From: a virus
IMG/VR virus record: IMGVR_UViG_3300024518_000034
Span: 124,001-188,000 of that record
Strand: one strand, 5' to 3'
Length of the DNA stretch: 64,000 nucleotides
In this document: piece by piece, positions 39,291-44,902 of the stretch
How the letters are laid out: every line of letters starts with the position of its first letter
Position numbering within the stretch: the stretch's first letter is position 1
The notes under the pieces: generated by a model
What the model saw: only the letters and a program-made list of their open reading frames with translations
What the model was told of the DNA's origin: nothing
Database searches by the model: none
Translations under genes and position numbers: made by a program

Positions 39291-39536
39291 ATGTTATTTA
39301 ATGTGCTAGCTGATGGAAATGTAGAATGTTTGTACACGGAAGAAATTGACTTGCCGTCAGTTGGCACGTTAAAGATTAGTCGTGCATCAAAAGTTGAATT
39401 TGATGATTATAGTCAGGGATGGATGGTTACAATTTTGAAAACTGGAGAAACGCTTGGTCCTTATAGATCTAGAAAAGCGGCTCTTGCAGAAGAAGTAGCA
39501 TTTTTGGAAGATAGAATGAGTGAATATGGCAGATAG
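39291..39536 (+). CDS. hypothetical small protein
   Basis: 81 aa from ATG 39291 (GGAG nine bases upstream; a TTG at 39276 is an alternative). Beta-rich: EIDLPSVGTLKISRAS and GWMVTILKTGETLGPYRSRKAALAEEVAFLED, the latter suggesting a small domain with a C-terminal helix. The last ten bases overlap the homing endonuclease gene. Confidence 0.55.
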   Translation: MLFNVLADGNVECLYTEEIDLPSVGTLKISRASKVEFDDYSQGWMVTILKTGETLGPYRSRKAALAEEVAFLEDRMSEYGR

Positions 39537-40155
39537 AAAAAGTAATGCTTTTAGAAAACACAATGAACACTTTTTTAAAGAATGGAATGAAAATTCGGCT
39601 TACGTATTAGGATATCTAGAAGCAGATGGTTGGTTGGACAATAGGAATAAGGCGATTGGGGTACAGTTTGGATGTAGCATAAAAGATTATGAATATTTAA
39701 CTCGTTTGAAAAATATTGTTTCACATACGGGAAAAATTTATGAAAAAGGTCAAATGGTGGGGTTTACAGTTTATAGTAGACAATGGAGAGATTCATTATT
39801 AACTAAAAGTTTTAGAAAAAGAAAGTTGCCTAAAATTCCTAGAGATTTAATACATCATTACATAAGAGGATTTTTCGATGGAGATGGCAGCGTTTATTTT
39901 TTTAATCATCTTAAACGAGTTAGTTTAGTTTTTTACAATTTAAACTTTGCTGAAGAAGTCTTAAAGTTAATAGCAAGAGAGGTTGGATTTAGTAAAGGGA
40001 TGAAGATATATAGAAAAGAAAATACAAAAGATAGTTGGTATTTTAGAATAGCAAAGCAAGAAATAGTAGAAAAGTTTGGGAATTGGATATATAAAGATGC
40101 AAATATTTTCTTAAAAAGAAAAAGAGAAAGATTTTTAGAAAGGAGGTCTAAGTAA
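39526..40155 (+). CDS. LAGLIDADG homing endonuclease
   Basis: 209 aa. Two catalytic motif copies: VLGYLEADGW (27-36) and YIRGFFDGDGSV (112-123), each with the essential acidic residue. Two motifs in one chain means it acts as a monomer. It is not inside an intron or intein; it sits free between the 39291 and DUF1257 genes and may have carried AGGAGG for the next gene with it. GTG 39520 is an alternative start. Confidence 0.85.
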   Translation: MADRKSNAFRKHNEHFFKEWNENSAYVLGYLEADGWLDNRNKAIGVQFGCSIKDYEYLTRLKNIVSHTGKIYEKGQMVGFTVYSRQWRDSLLTKSFRKRKLPKIPRDLIHHYIRGFFDGDGSVYFFNHLKRVSLVFYNLNFAEEVLKLIAREVGFSKGMKIYRKENTKDSWYFRIAKQEIVEKFGNWIYKDANIFLKRKRERFLERRSK

Positions 40156-41767: not shown

Positions 41768-41785
41768 AAGTAGAAGTAAATGGGA

Positions 41786-41866
41786 GTAGCAGTCAACGGT
41801 GTGGGGCACCGTAGCAGTATGACTACTACATCAGTATTGGAGACGATAAAGGTGGGGCCAATATTG
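41786..41866 (+). ncRNA. structured non-coding RNA, function unknown
   Basis: First transcribed segment of the RNA island. GTAGCAGTCA (41786-41795) pairs with TGACTACTAC (41820-41829) with one mismatch, enclosing a perfect ACGGTG-TGGGG-CACCGT hairpin. A second stem, AGTATTGG with CCAATATT (41833-41865), follows. There is no open frame of note and no tRNA T-arm. It could be a processing signal, a leader or an independent small RNA. Confidence 0.45.
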
Positions 41867-41877
41867 AAATTAAGTAT

Positions 41878-41948
41878 GCGCGGTTGACCGAGTGGCTAGA
41901 TGATTGGTTGCAACCCTTTTTACCCCAGTTCGAATCTGGGACCGTGCT
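41878..41948 (+). tRNA. tRNA-Cys (GCA), weak anticodon stem
   Basis: Acceptor GCGCGGT pairs with ACCGTGC; T-arm CCCAG-TTCGAAT-CTGGG is canonical. The loop TTGCAAC gives anticodon GCA, and U73 is the cysteine discriminator. The anticodon stem has two T-T mismatches, so the gene may be decaying. No CCA is encoded. Confidence 0.6.
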
Positions 41949-41956
41949 TTATAAAA

Positions 41957-42018
41957 GCTAGATGCTGATGGAGTTACTGTCAAATGAGAAAAGAAAACTT
42001 CATTAACTATATGCTAGC
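41957..42018 (+). ncRNA. conserved hairpin RNA motif, copy 1
   Basis: Outer stem GCTAG (41957-41961) with CTAGC (42014-42018). An internal loop with ATGC on one side and a strand ending AACTATATG on the other. Inner stem TGATGGAGTT with AACTTCATTA (two wobbles). Outer stem and internal-loop bases are the same in copy 2 at 46536, while inner-stem bases differ but still pair. Confidence 0.6.
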
Positions 42019-42053
42019 ATTGAAATAAATCCCGAATGTGGAATGGAGTTACA

Positions 42054-42126
42054 ATTCTCTACGAAAGAAAAGATGTCGGTTCGATTCCGGCTCTCTCCGT
42101 TGGAGAGATGGTGTAATGGTAACATA
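42054..42126 (+). tRNA. tRNA-Arg (ACG)-like gene with halves in permuted order
   Basis: The 3' half comes first: anticodon arm ATTCT-CTACGAA-AGAAA (42054-42070), T-arm GTCGG-TTCGATT-CCGGC, acceptor strand TCTCTCC and G73 (42099). After two T, the 5' half follows: GGAGAGA (42102-42108), T8 G9, D-arm GTGT-AATGGTA-ACAT and A26 (42126). The acceptor strands match in all seven pairs. In linear order the bases upstream of the 3' half give an acceptor that pairs at only two of seven positions, although a D-arm-like GTGG...TTAC lies there. This fits a circularly permuted tRNA or a tandem duplication that lost its outer halves. Confidence 0.55.
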
Positions 42127-42160
42127 AAAAATACACTTCTTCCGTTTATGTTGGGTAATA

Positions 42161-42240: not shown

Positions 42241-42624
42241 GGGACTGAAATAGGATCGACAGGATTCAAGACAATATTAGTGGCACGTAGTAGTTGGTGG
42301 AATGGCTACTTTAAAAATCTACTAAAAAAAGTTTTAATTGACAACAACAATGTCATTTCTCTGAGTGATCGTCGCAAGGGTCGTAAGACTCGTGCGTTCG
42401 CTCGCCTAGCTGCTTAATTAACAGCCAGAGCCTGAAGCACGGACTCCGATACGTGTGGACGGTCGTATCGGATTGTTTGAATTTCTTATTTTATAAAACT
42501 TAAAACTTAAAAATAAGTGGTGGAGGCAAATGGTTGCTTGTTACCTAATTTAACAAGACAAACGTGTAGAAGCTATATTTGATGGATTACTGGACGCGGG
42601 ATGCGATGCCCGCCAGTTCCACCA
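42241..42624 (+). ncRNA. ssrA: transfer-messenger RNA (tmRNA)
   Basis: Complete one-piece tmRNA, 384 nt with encoded CCA. GGGACTG (42241-42247) pairs with CAGTTCC (42614-42620), including the G3-U70 wobble that marks alanine charging. The 5' part (GGATCGACAGGATTC) and the 3' part (GGACGCGGG, T-loop, CCCGC) match bacterial tmRNAs closely; the T-loop has eight bases. The tag frame ends RAFARLAA and then TAATTAA, so the degradation signal LAA is kept. The tag, from about Asp-Asn-Asn-Asn (42340) to the stop at 42415, is about 25 residues and unusually basic. It rescues stalled ribosomes with SmpB, which would come from the host. Confidence 0.93.
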
Positions 42625-42630
42625 AACAAA

Positions 42631-42700
42631 CGGTGTTCAGGTGATATGCGGCAGAGATTACATCAAGCTGCTGACGCTGGTTCAAAACCAGCAACACCGG
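42631..42700 (+). other. tRNA-like sequence lacking a normal anticodon arm
   Basis: Acceptor CGGTGTT pairs perfectly with AACACCG and the T-arm GCTGG-TTCAAAA-CCAGC is canonical. Between them only 38 bases remain, and no five-pair stem with a seven-base loop fits. GGCAG/CTGCT with a 13-base loop, or a long D-like arm, are the alternatives. It is either a reduced tRNA or a tRNA mimic, seven bases after the tmRNA. Confidence 0.45.
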
Positions 42701-42772
42701 TTACGTTCGATGGAATGGTCATTAATGAACAAAATGGGAACCTACCATAACCCATCGACTGAAATAAAGTAG

Positions 42773-42822: not shown

Positions 42823-42982
42823 GCGAGGGTGTCGGAAGACACAAGTGGACTTAACATAAAAAAGCGTTCTTTTTATAATCTGCTCATTTATTTGAGTTAC
42901 ATTTTAAAAAGACTTTGAAAATATTTGTAAGGTTCGAAAGAGGACTACTGCTTGGCAGGTGAAAGCCCTGTCCCTCGCCACA
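42823..42982 (+). ncRNA. structured RNA with tRNA-like ends (YrlA/Y-RNA candidate)
   Basis: GCGAGGG (42823-42829) pairs fully with CCCTCGC (42972-42978). Next to it are a small D-like arm (TGTC-GGAA-GACA) and a T-like arm (GCAGG-TGAAAGC-CCTGT), so the ends mimic a tRNA. Instead of an anticodon arm there is an insert of about 110 bases with A/T-rich hairpins (ATAAAAA...TTTTTAT) and a helix ACTTAACA/TGTAAGGT, followed by GGTTCGAAAG. YrlA-type Y RNAs have this arrangement, and a Ro60-like gene lies about 370 bases downstream. A tRNA with an intron is the alternative; no such exon pairing was fully convincing. Confidence 0.45.
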
Positions 42983-43312: not shown

Positions 43313-43354
43313 CCAAGTCGGCAGTAGGGCCGAATGAAGAAAGGGAGAATTATC

Positions 43355-44902
43355 ATGAATACAATCACAAAGAACGCGGCAGGCGGTGTAGCAATTCGTA
43401 AGAGCAAGGAAAACGCTCTAGCAACAATGGTGTGTACTGGCACTCAGAACGGAGCGTTCTATGCCGACGCAAGCAAGATCACTGATGTAATGAAAGCTCT
43501 AGCTCATCAGGTAAGTCCTGAAGCTCTTGCAAAGATTTTGGTCTACGGACGCAAGAAGGGGCACATGAAAGATCTGCCTGCTCTTGGTCTGGCAATTCTT
43601 GCAACCAAGGACAGCAAGCTATTTCGTAAGGTCGCACCTCACATTCTAGACAACAGCAAGATGTTGCGTAACTTCGTTAAGTATATGCGAGATGGATCAG
43701 TGGGACGTAAGTCTCTCGGTCACGCTGCAAAGAAGGCTGTACAGAGATGGTTTGATGCAAAGGATGCTAAGGGATTGTTCTATAATTCGATTGGTAACGA
43801 TCCGTCACTGGCAGACGTAATTCGTTTGGCGCATCCAAAGCCAAAAACTAAGGAAGCTGAAAATATGTTTGCTTACATTCTTGGAAGAGAATATAAGACT
43901 AACTTGCTTCCTGACAACGTGCAGGATTATGAAAGATACAAACAGTCTGATCGTCCAGGTGGACGAGCAGTTCCGAATGTTCCGTTTCAGATGTTGGACA
44001 GTCTAGGATTGGACAAGGCTGGATGGATTCAGATTGCAGAAAGAGCAAGCTGGCAACAAACTAGAATGCTTTTGAACACTTTTGTTAGACATGGAGTATT
44101 TGAGAGTCATGCAGGTATGGGTAAGATAATTGCAGATAGGTTGCGTAATCGTGATCTGATCGCTAAATCTAGAGTGTTTCCATATCAGTTGTTGGTAGCA
44201 TTCAAGAACGCAGAGGGTGTTCCACAAGAAGTATTGTTGGCATTGCAGGACGCTTTGGATATTGCATGTGAGAACATTCCAGAGATCGATGGAAAGGTGT
44301 ACGTATTTCCTGACGTTTCAGGCTCAATGAGAAGTCCAGTGACTGGATATCGTTACGGTGGACAGAGAAGTTCGACTGTACGTTGTGTTGACGTGGCAGC
44401 ATTGTTTGCAGCAGCGCTTTTGAAAAAGAACCCTGAAGCAATCGTTAGACCGTTTGATACTAAGGTGCATCGTCCTACGTTGAATCCTAGAGACAGCGTG
44501 ATGACTCTTGCAGATAAGTTGGCTAGGTATGGTGGCGGTGGAACTAATTGCTCTCTTGCTATGCAGGAGTTAAATGGGGAAGTTACTAGAGATACTTCGG
44601 CAGTAATATATATTTCAGACAGTGAGTCTTGGGCTGATATTGAAGGACGAAACAGATATTGGTATGGTGAATCTTCAACTGGTCTGATGGATGGCTGGAA
44701 CGAGTTTAAGTCACGTAACCAAGAAGCTAAGTTGGTATGTATGGATATGCAGCCGTACACTACATCGCAGGCTGACGAGCATCGTAGAGATATTTTGCTA
44801 GTCGGTGGGTTCAGCGACAGAGTATTTGATGTTGTTGCTGACTACGTGAAGTATGGTGAACGTAACTGGATGGATATCATCAACCAAGAAGTTAATCTTT
44901 AA
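43355..44902 (+). CDS. Ro60/Rsr-like TROVE-VWA RNA-binding protein
   Basis: 515 aa from ATG 43355 (GGGAG nine bases upstream). The N-terminal 300 residues form a HEAT-like TROVE domain (VCTGTQNGAFYAD, ALAKILVYGRKKGHMKD, LPALGLAILATKD). The C-terminal VWA-like domain holds the MIDAS motif DVSGSM at 320-325 and a later GGGGTNCSLAM and ISDSESW. Ro60 rings bind misfolded RNAs and Y RNAs and feed them to exonucleases. Codon use is fairly optimised. A GroES gene and a tRNA-like RNA precede it, and a terminator follows. Confidence 0.9.
   Translation: MNTITKNAAGGVAIRKSKENALATMVCTGTQNGAFYADASKITDVMKALAHQVSPEALAKILVYGRKKGHMKDLPALGLAILATKDSKLFRKVAPHILDNSKMLRNFVKYMRDGSVGRKSLGHAAKKAVQRWFDAKDAKGLFYNSIGNDPSLADVIRLAHPKPKTKEAENMFAYILGREYKTNLLPDNVQDYERYKQSDRPGGRAVPNVPFQMLDSLGLDKAGWIQIAERASWQQTRMLLNTFVRHGVFESHAGMGKIIADRLRNRDLIAKSRVFPYQLLVAFKNAEGVPQEVLLALQDALDIACENIPEIDGKVYVFPDVSGSMRSPVTGYRYGGQRSSTVRCVDVAALFAAALLKKNPEAIVRPFDTKVHRPTLNPRDSVMTLADKLARYGGGGTNCSLAMQELNGEVTRDTSAVIYISDSESWADIEGRNRYWYGESSTGLMDGWNEFKSRNQEAKLVCMDMQPYTTSQADEHRRDILLVGGFSDRVFDVVADYVKYGERNWMDIINQEVNL

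Follow-up and report, generated by a model that had tools for sequence, protein, structure and literature searches.

An apparent permuted tRNA gene in a phage genome is very probably a YrlA-type Y RNA, the predicted partner of a phage Ro60 protein

Results

A permuted tRNA-like element upstream of a Ro60 gene

The 64-kb window, by which we mean the whole stretch of DNA analysed here, is part of a 192-kb virus record with a portal gene. In its tRNA/tmRNA cluster, between the genes for tRNA-Cys and tmRNA, lies a tRNA-like element with unusual arm order, and 1.2 kb downstream of it, on the same strand, a gene for an orthologue of Ro60/Rsr (Table 1). The Ro60 protein probably starts at 43355. The gene product matched phrog_850 (RNA-binding protein, 6e-33) and the PDB structures 2nvo (Rsr) and 1yvp (Ro), and the Ro60 orthologue of phage Mx1 is 47% identical to it. 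The phage genome also encodes an RNA_ligase-domain protein, and no RtcB was found in the phage record. As for the two neighbours in the cluster, the tmRNA at 42241-42624 scored 86.7 bits and has the predicted tag DNNNVISLSDRRKGRKTRAFARLAA, while the tRNA-Cys(GCA) at 41878-41948 received a low score of 35.3 bits, has a poor anticodon stem and is possibly degenerate.

Table 1. Features of the Y RNA-Ro60 locus (positions in the window)
Feature	Coordinates	Strand	Sequence, pairing or domains	Basis
Second, short Y RNA-like element	41952-42023	+	Ro60-type stem GCTAGATGCTGATGGAGTTAC...ACTTCATTAACTATATGCTAGC	R1 18.5 bits, E 6.7e-5; fold
Very probable phage Y RNA (YrlA type), whole	42026-42160	+		R1 match 52.4 bits, E 2.6e-13, model positions 1-133
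Basal stem, 5' strand	42031-42035	+	CCCGA, pairs with 42151-42155	cmsearch alignment, MFE fold
Ro60 stem, 5' strand	42041-42052	+	GAAUGGAGU, then UAC; pairs with 42135-42142	model alignment, MFE fold, ATGGAGTTAC repeat
Anticodon-arm-like hairpin	42055-42069	+	TTCT-CTACGAA-AGAA, 4 bp, triplet ACG	sequence; family-wide test
T-arm	42075-42091	+	GTCGG-TTCGATT-CCGGC, 5/5 pairs	sequence, covariance-model alignment
Acceptor hairpin	42092-42108	+	TCTCTCC-GTT-GGAGAGA, 7/7 pairs, 3-nt loop	sequence, covariance-model alignment, MFE fold
D-arm	42111-42125	+	GTGT-AATGGTA-ACAT, 4/4 pairs, GG in loop	sequence, covariance-model alignment
Ro60 stem, 3' strand	42135-42142	+	ACUUCUUC	covariance-model alignment, MFE fold
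Basal stem, 3' strand	42151-42155	+	UUGGG	covariance-model alignment, MFE fold
Ro60/Rsr orthologue gene	43334-44902	+	TROVE and Ro60 vWA	Pfam PF25045 4e-10, PF05731 2e-7

Read directly, positions 42055-42125 hold, in this order, an anticodon-like hairpin, AAGAT, a T-arm, the 3' strand of an acceptor stem, GTT, the acceptor 5' strand, TG and a D-arm. A sequence-only reading had proposed a candidate circularly permuted tRNA-Arg gene at 42054-42126, and we could confirm the arm order on which it was built (5/5, 7/7 and 4/4 pairs, plus the anticodon-like hairpin), as well as its observation that the acceptor pairs in 7/7 positions in the permuted order versus 2/7 in linear reading. When rejoined, the permuted arms give a full cloverleaf with 4/5 pairs in the anticodon stem. 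The two acceptor strands are 3 nt apart and CCA is not encoded. When stems of T=5, A=7 and D=4 pairs were sought mechanically in the permuted arrangement, the window itself gave a single match and its 150 dinucleotide shuffles gave 0, and we therefore rejected chance as the origin of the core.

Neither ARAGORN nor Rfam at gathering score called the permuted element, ARAGORN found no flanking tRNA halves at 42054-42126, and none of the Rfam Y RNA families rose above threshold, so Rfam alone gave no identification. A linear Rfam tRNA match at 42038-42091 was sub-threshold (22.9 bits against a cut-off of 29) and lacked the acceptor stem. The element proved to be larger than first reported, extending over about 42026-42160.

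A covariance model of bacterial Y RNAs matches the element end to end

Relatives of Ro60 were gathered from annotated phages, IMG/VR and GTDB genomes. In IMG/VR, a scan with a single Ro60 protein found no relatives whereas an alignment of two sequences found seven; when Ro60 sequences of seven diverse phages were aligned, they diverged too far for the alignment to serve in collection scans. A DNA-pattern search of IMG/VR (Ro60 strand plus T-arm) gave one match, which was without the permuted core and was taken as chance. In most bacterial loci, a permuted element with T-arm, acceptor hairpin and D-arm was present beside Ro60, close to the gene and sharing its strand, with the consensus flanks CGAATGCCGGTGGAACTACAT on the 5' side and GTTTC...CTTGTCG on the 3' side.

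The covariance model R1 was built from 38 of these bacterial Y RNAs only, with no phage sequence and no sequence from the window. In its training alignment, 94.5% of the cells of the 32-pair structure pair, a level that none of 500 shuffles reached; compensatory (both-sided) change was seen in 23 of the 32 pairs, and both Ro60-stem helices covary. Training sequences had been selected on their T, acceptor and D stems and, except for short anchors, not on their Ro60-stem helices. Since having the permuted core was what qualified a sequence for training, the core's share of any R1 score is partly due to construction.

In the window, R1 matched 42026-42160 over its full length (Table 1), and the same match was obtained with the filters off. 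The next-best place in the 64 kb scored 12.4 bits, against 52.4 bits for the element. As a positive control we used an enterobacterial rsr-Y RNA-rtcB locus, which scored 87.6 bits; it is carried by contigs L003 and L004 from Turkey, which are labelled phage and are really enterobacterial rsr-Y RNA-rtcB DNA. These two records (GenBank OR845705.1 and OR851267.1, deposited as Escherichia and Salmonella phage) look like enterobacterial chromosomal contamination. The Y RNAs of phages and viral contigs (Mx1, Myrna, Big4, GMA2, Limpid, L012 and L017) scored 51-104 bits. Applied to seven whole bacterial genomes, R1 gave 21 matches at E<=1e-9; 20 of them lay on the contig that carries Ro60, in a single cluster in each genome, and the remaining one was a partial match. 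Independent loci of about 3 kb drawn by R1 from other genomes had Ro60 within about 1.5 kb in 27 of 34 cases. Adjacent intact tRNA genes can imitate the core, as does a pair elsewhere in the phage that we used as negative control (G000:27420-27473, 25 bits, R1 positions 43-98 only), and partial R1 matches were for this reason not counted as Y RNAs.

Anatomy of the probable Y RNA

Anatomy, covariance-model membership and genomic linkage together point to 42026-42160 as a phage-encoded YrlA-type Y RNA and partner of the phage Ro60, a reading to which we assign a probability of roughly 93%. Both ends of the RNA pair, in the full-length model match as in the MFE fold, into a stem with Ro60-type sequence, and this stem is divergent. 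The CGAATG at the basal stem corresponds to the conserved sequence with which the Ro60 stem of Y RNAs begins. An internal loop separates the basal stem from the Ro60 stem, where 42041-42049 and 42135-42142 form seven standard pairs with one mismatch and one bulge. The three outermost pairs of the model are unformed, one Ro60-stem pair is mismatched, and the 3' motif CUUGUCG is altered to UAUGUUGG. By PWM, the 5' strand of the Ro60 stem scored 3.4 bits versus 17-40 in bacterial Y RNAs, and this score was still among the top half dozen of 128,000 positions. The pairing energy of the flanks alone was not significant, as 24% of shuffled flanks did as well. The unconstrained MFE fold yielded the basal stem, the Ro60 stem, the anticodon-like hairpin, the T hairpin and the acceptor hairpin, and paired the D-arm region differently from the model.

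This anatomy accounts for the permuted order. Between the D-arm and the anticodon-like arm, the two ends of the RNA itself make up the Ro60 stem: the ends emerge at the position of a tRNA's anticodon stem, and the tRNA-like arms must therefore appear in permuted order. The order is thus explained without any cut-and-seal processing. The GTGGAATGGAGTTAC upstream, earlier taken for a remnant D-arm, is the Ro60-stem strand CGAATG...GGAGTTACA, the core of which recurs in a second Y-like stem just upstream. The tandem duplication with loss of the outer halves that had been proposed along with it finds no support.

A second, short element in tandem

The match to the short element at 41952-42023 came from an unfiltered R1 search of 1.6 kb. 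Its stem is without a tRNA-like module. The 10-nt repeat ATGGAGTTAC is identical in this element and in the main Y RNA, and the pattern ACTTC.TT...TATG is common to both at the same structural positions, with ends this similar found in 93 of 5000 shuffles. Short partners exist elsewhere too, for example in L012 and L017, where R1 gave short matches over its full length. A weak R1 match at 42635-42764 (11.6 bits) was considered and is not claimed as a Y RNA. It overlaps a candidate stable small RNA at 42627-42702, closed by CGGTGTT/AACACCG (z -3.0), which holds a T-arm-like hairpin, CTGGTTCAAAACCAG, and a strand, ATGCGGCAGAGATTACATC, reminiscent of the Y RNA 5' strand.

An anticodon-like arm is present in many Y RNAs

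The region between the Ro60 strand and the T-arm was examined for a hairpin with at least 3 pairs and the canonical 7-nt loop YUNNNRH, in those Y RNAs with enough room, and compared with dinucleotide shuffles. Such an arm was present in 28 of 63 Y RNAs, where about 1.8 were expected. The first set contributed 26 of 54 (1.6 expected from shuffles) and the independent set 2 of 9 (0.2 expected, with a maximum of 3); when each sequence cluster was reduced to a single member, the count was 9 of 27 against 0.7. When 840 permutations of the loop pattern were compared, the true anticodon pattern ranked first (28, with a median of 2). The search region was widened by two bases after the first pass and the independent set is small, so the result is strong but partly post hoc. 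Ro60-linked loci with the arm are L008, L012, L025, L032, L051, L055, L057, L076 and others. Some Y RNAs are without it altogether, and in some the anticodon region is just a few nt long.

A published description of Y RNAs names D, T and acceptor arms only (PMC8394870). The finding of the arm in 28 of 63 suggests that the tRNA mimicry of many Y RNAs covers the whole tRNA, anticodon arm included. YrlA has been suggested as a possible competitor with an anticodon nuclease (PMC7790460), and an anticodon-like arm would fit that idea. It is tempting to go further and speculate that the mimicry is complete and that in infected cells the phage copy, whose loop of the tRNA-Arg(ACG) type is intact, serves as a Ro60-held decoy or regulator for enzymes such as anticodon nucleases or a TadA-like deaminase, which attack anticodon loops or modify them, a proposal that we consider rather unlikely in this full form.

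Discussion

Alternative explanations

If the element is a Y RNA by descent, it might have lost Ro60 binding and now act only as a free tRNA mimic or decoy. A divergent Ro60 stem with weak flank pairing is what one would then find, but the phage has retained an intact Ro60 gene next to the Y RNA and, in tandem, another stem of the Ro60 type in which the sequence motifs recur, which makes such a loss very unlikely.

Circularly permuted tRNA genes exist in red algae and some archaea, where functional tRNAs are produced via circularisation and reopening. Were the phage element a genuine gene of this kind for tRNA-Arg(ACG), its transcript would be closed into a circle on the anticodon side, a step that the RNA ligase of the phage might perform; RNase P and RNase Z would then open the acceptor, and CCA would be added. 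This route has to cope with acceptor strands just 3 nt apart, a CCA that is not encoded and a phage record without RtcB, even though an RNA_ligase-domain protein is encoded in the genome. All four tRNA arms are indeed present at 42055-42125, and the loop CUACGAA is that of an ordinary tRNA-Arg(ACG); however, the outer ends match the Ro60 stem of Y RNAs, and the same order is general beside Ro60, even in members whose anticodon region has few nt. We regard a true permuted tRNA-Arg gene as highly improbable. What stands of the sequence-only reading is the permuted tRNA-like fold, which is real, while the tRNA-Arg gene itself is unsupported given the end-to-end match of 42026-42160 to a bacterial Y RNA model.

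That two ordinary tRNA genes decayed here and left halves which pair by chance is scarcely credible: the element does lie among clustered tRNA and tmRNA genes, and the local order can be mimicked by intact tRNAs that adjoin each other (G000:27420-27473), but the outer tRNA halves are absent, the acceptor pairs in 7/7 positions, the strict core occurred in 0 of 150 shuffled windows, and the model match is full-length, continuing through the Ro60 stem on both sides.

Comparison with known systems

The apparent back-to-front tRNA gene is thus almost certainly a further member of the known Y RNA family and not a new kind of tRNA gene. YrlA RNAs measure 90-150 nt and combine an Rsr-bound end-to-end stem with a tRNA-like domain, the arms of which recall the D, T and acceptor arms of a tRNA (PMC8394870). 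The phage element resembles the YrlA-type bacterial Y RNAs (Salmonella rsr-yrlBA-rtcBA operon; PMC8394870, PMC7790460) in its linkage to Ro60/Rsr, its end-to-end stem CGAAUG...GGA..UAC, its permuted T-arm, acceptor hairpin and D-arm, and its tandem short Y RNA without tRNA-like module. It differs from them in being encoded by a phage, in its position between tRNA-Cys and tmRNA genes with no RtcB beside it, and in its divergent 3' motif, 3-nt acceptor loop and well-formed anticodon-like arm. TROVE proteins are noted in a review of jumbo phages, and in cells these proteins work with a tRNA-like partner (PMC7824862).

The novelty suggested for the arm order as a phage phenomenon is not borne out, since bacterial Y RNAs encoded beside Ro60 are normally built in just this order. 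R1 also found Y RNAs in Mx1, actinophages and viral contigs. No close relatives of this phage (80-95% identity) were found. The Y RNAs of Mx1, Myrna, Limpid, GMA2, Big4, L012 and L017 share with the present one a full-length R1 match and a genome that encodes Ro60, while the sequence of the Ro60 stem differs between lineages. They lie anywhere from adjoining the Ro60 gene to tens of kb away, often within tRNA arrays, and in the Ro60 regions examined they are not annotated as Y RNAs. Y RNAs beside Ro60 in phages are said to have been reported already by Chen and colleagues in the journal RNA in 2014.

With the permuted tRNA genes of red algae and archaea the element shares the arm order; unlike theirs, its ends build a predicted protein-binding stem. 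The permuted two-piece tmRNA (RF04321) likewise has a tRNA-like domain with permuted ends, from which the phage element differs in having no tag reading frame. Matches to RF04321 were sub-threshold (17-19 bits) and lay elsewhere than 42026-42160, and this candidate was rejected.

A possible role and its implications

In Deinococcus, a Y RNA has been shown to tether the effector PNPase (PMC8058203, PMC8394870). If the phage RNP works like those of Deinococcus and Salmonella, a phage Y RNA would be transcribed from 42026-42160, and the phage Ro60/Rsr would bind the bulged stem formed by its 5' and 3' ends. The permuted tRNA-like module might then dock an effector on Ro60, namely PNPase, probably that of the host, and direct the degradation of structured RNA. 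Alternatively, the module may compete for tRNA-binding enzymes such as anticodon nucleases. Phages face such nucleases, and are therefore a natural place for testing the competition idea put forward for YrlA (PMC7790460).

The claim that this phage has a permuted tRNA gene is false and gives way to a Ro60-Y RNA pair that can be tested. Programs designed to find permuted tRNAs will also report the Y RNAs that accompany Ro60, and their hits should therefore be checked for a nearby Ro60 gene first.

Other features of the neighbourhood

Three further features of the region were recorded. The stretch 42823-42980 is RNA-like and closed by GCGAGGG/CCCTCGC (z -2.9), with a TGTCGGAAGACA hairpin and GGACTTAA; it resembles a tRNA-Leu(UAA) into which other sequence has been inserted. 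Two stable hairpins occupy 41785-41870, a stretch with z -2.2 that is flanked by the genes for DUF5662 and tRNA-Cys. Finally, 39520-40155 encodes a LAGLIDADG-domain protein of the homing endonuclease type, flanked by NYN-domain and DUF1257 genes.
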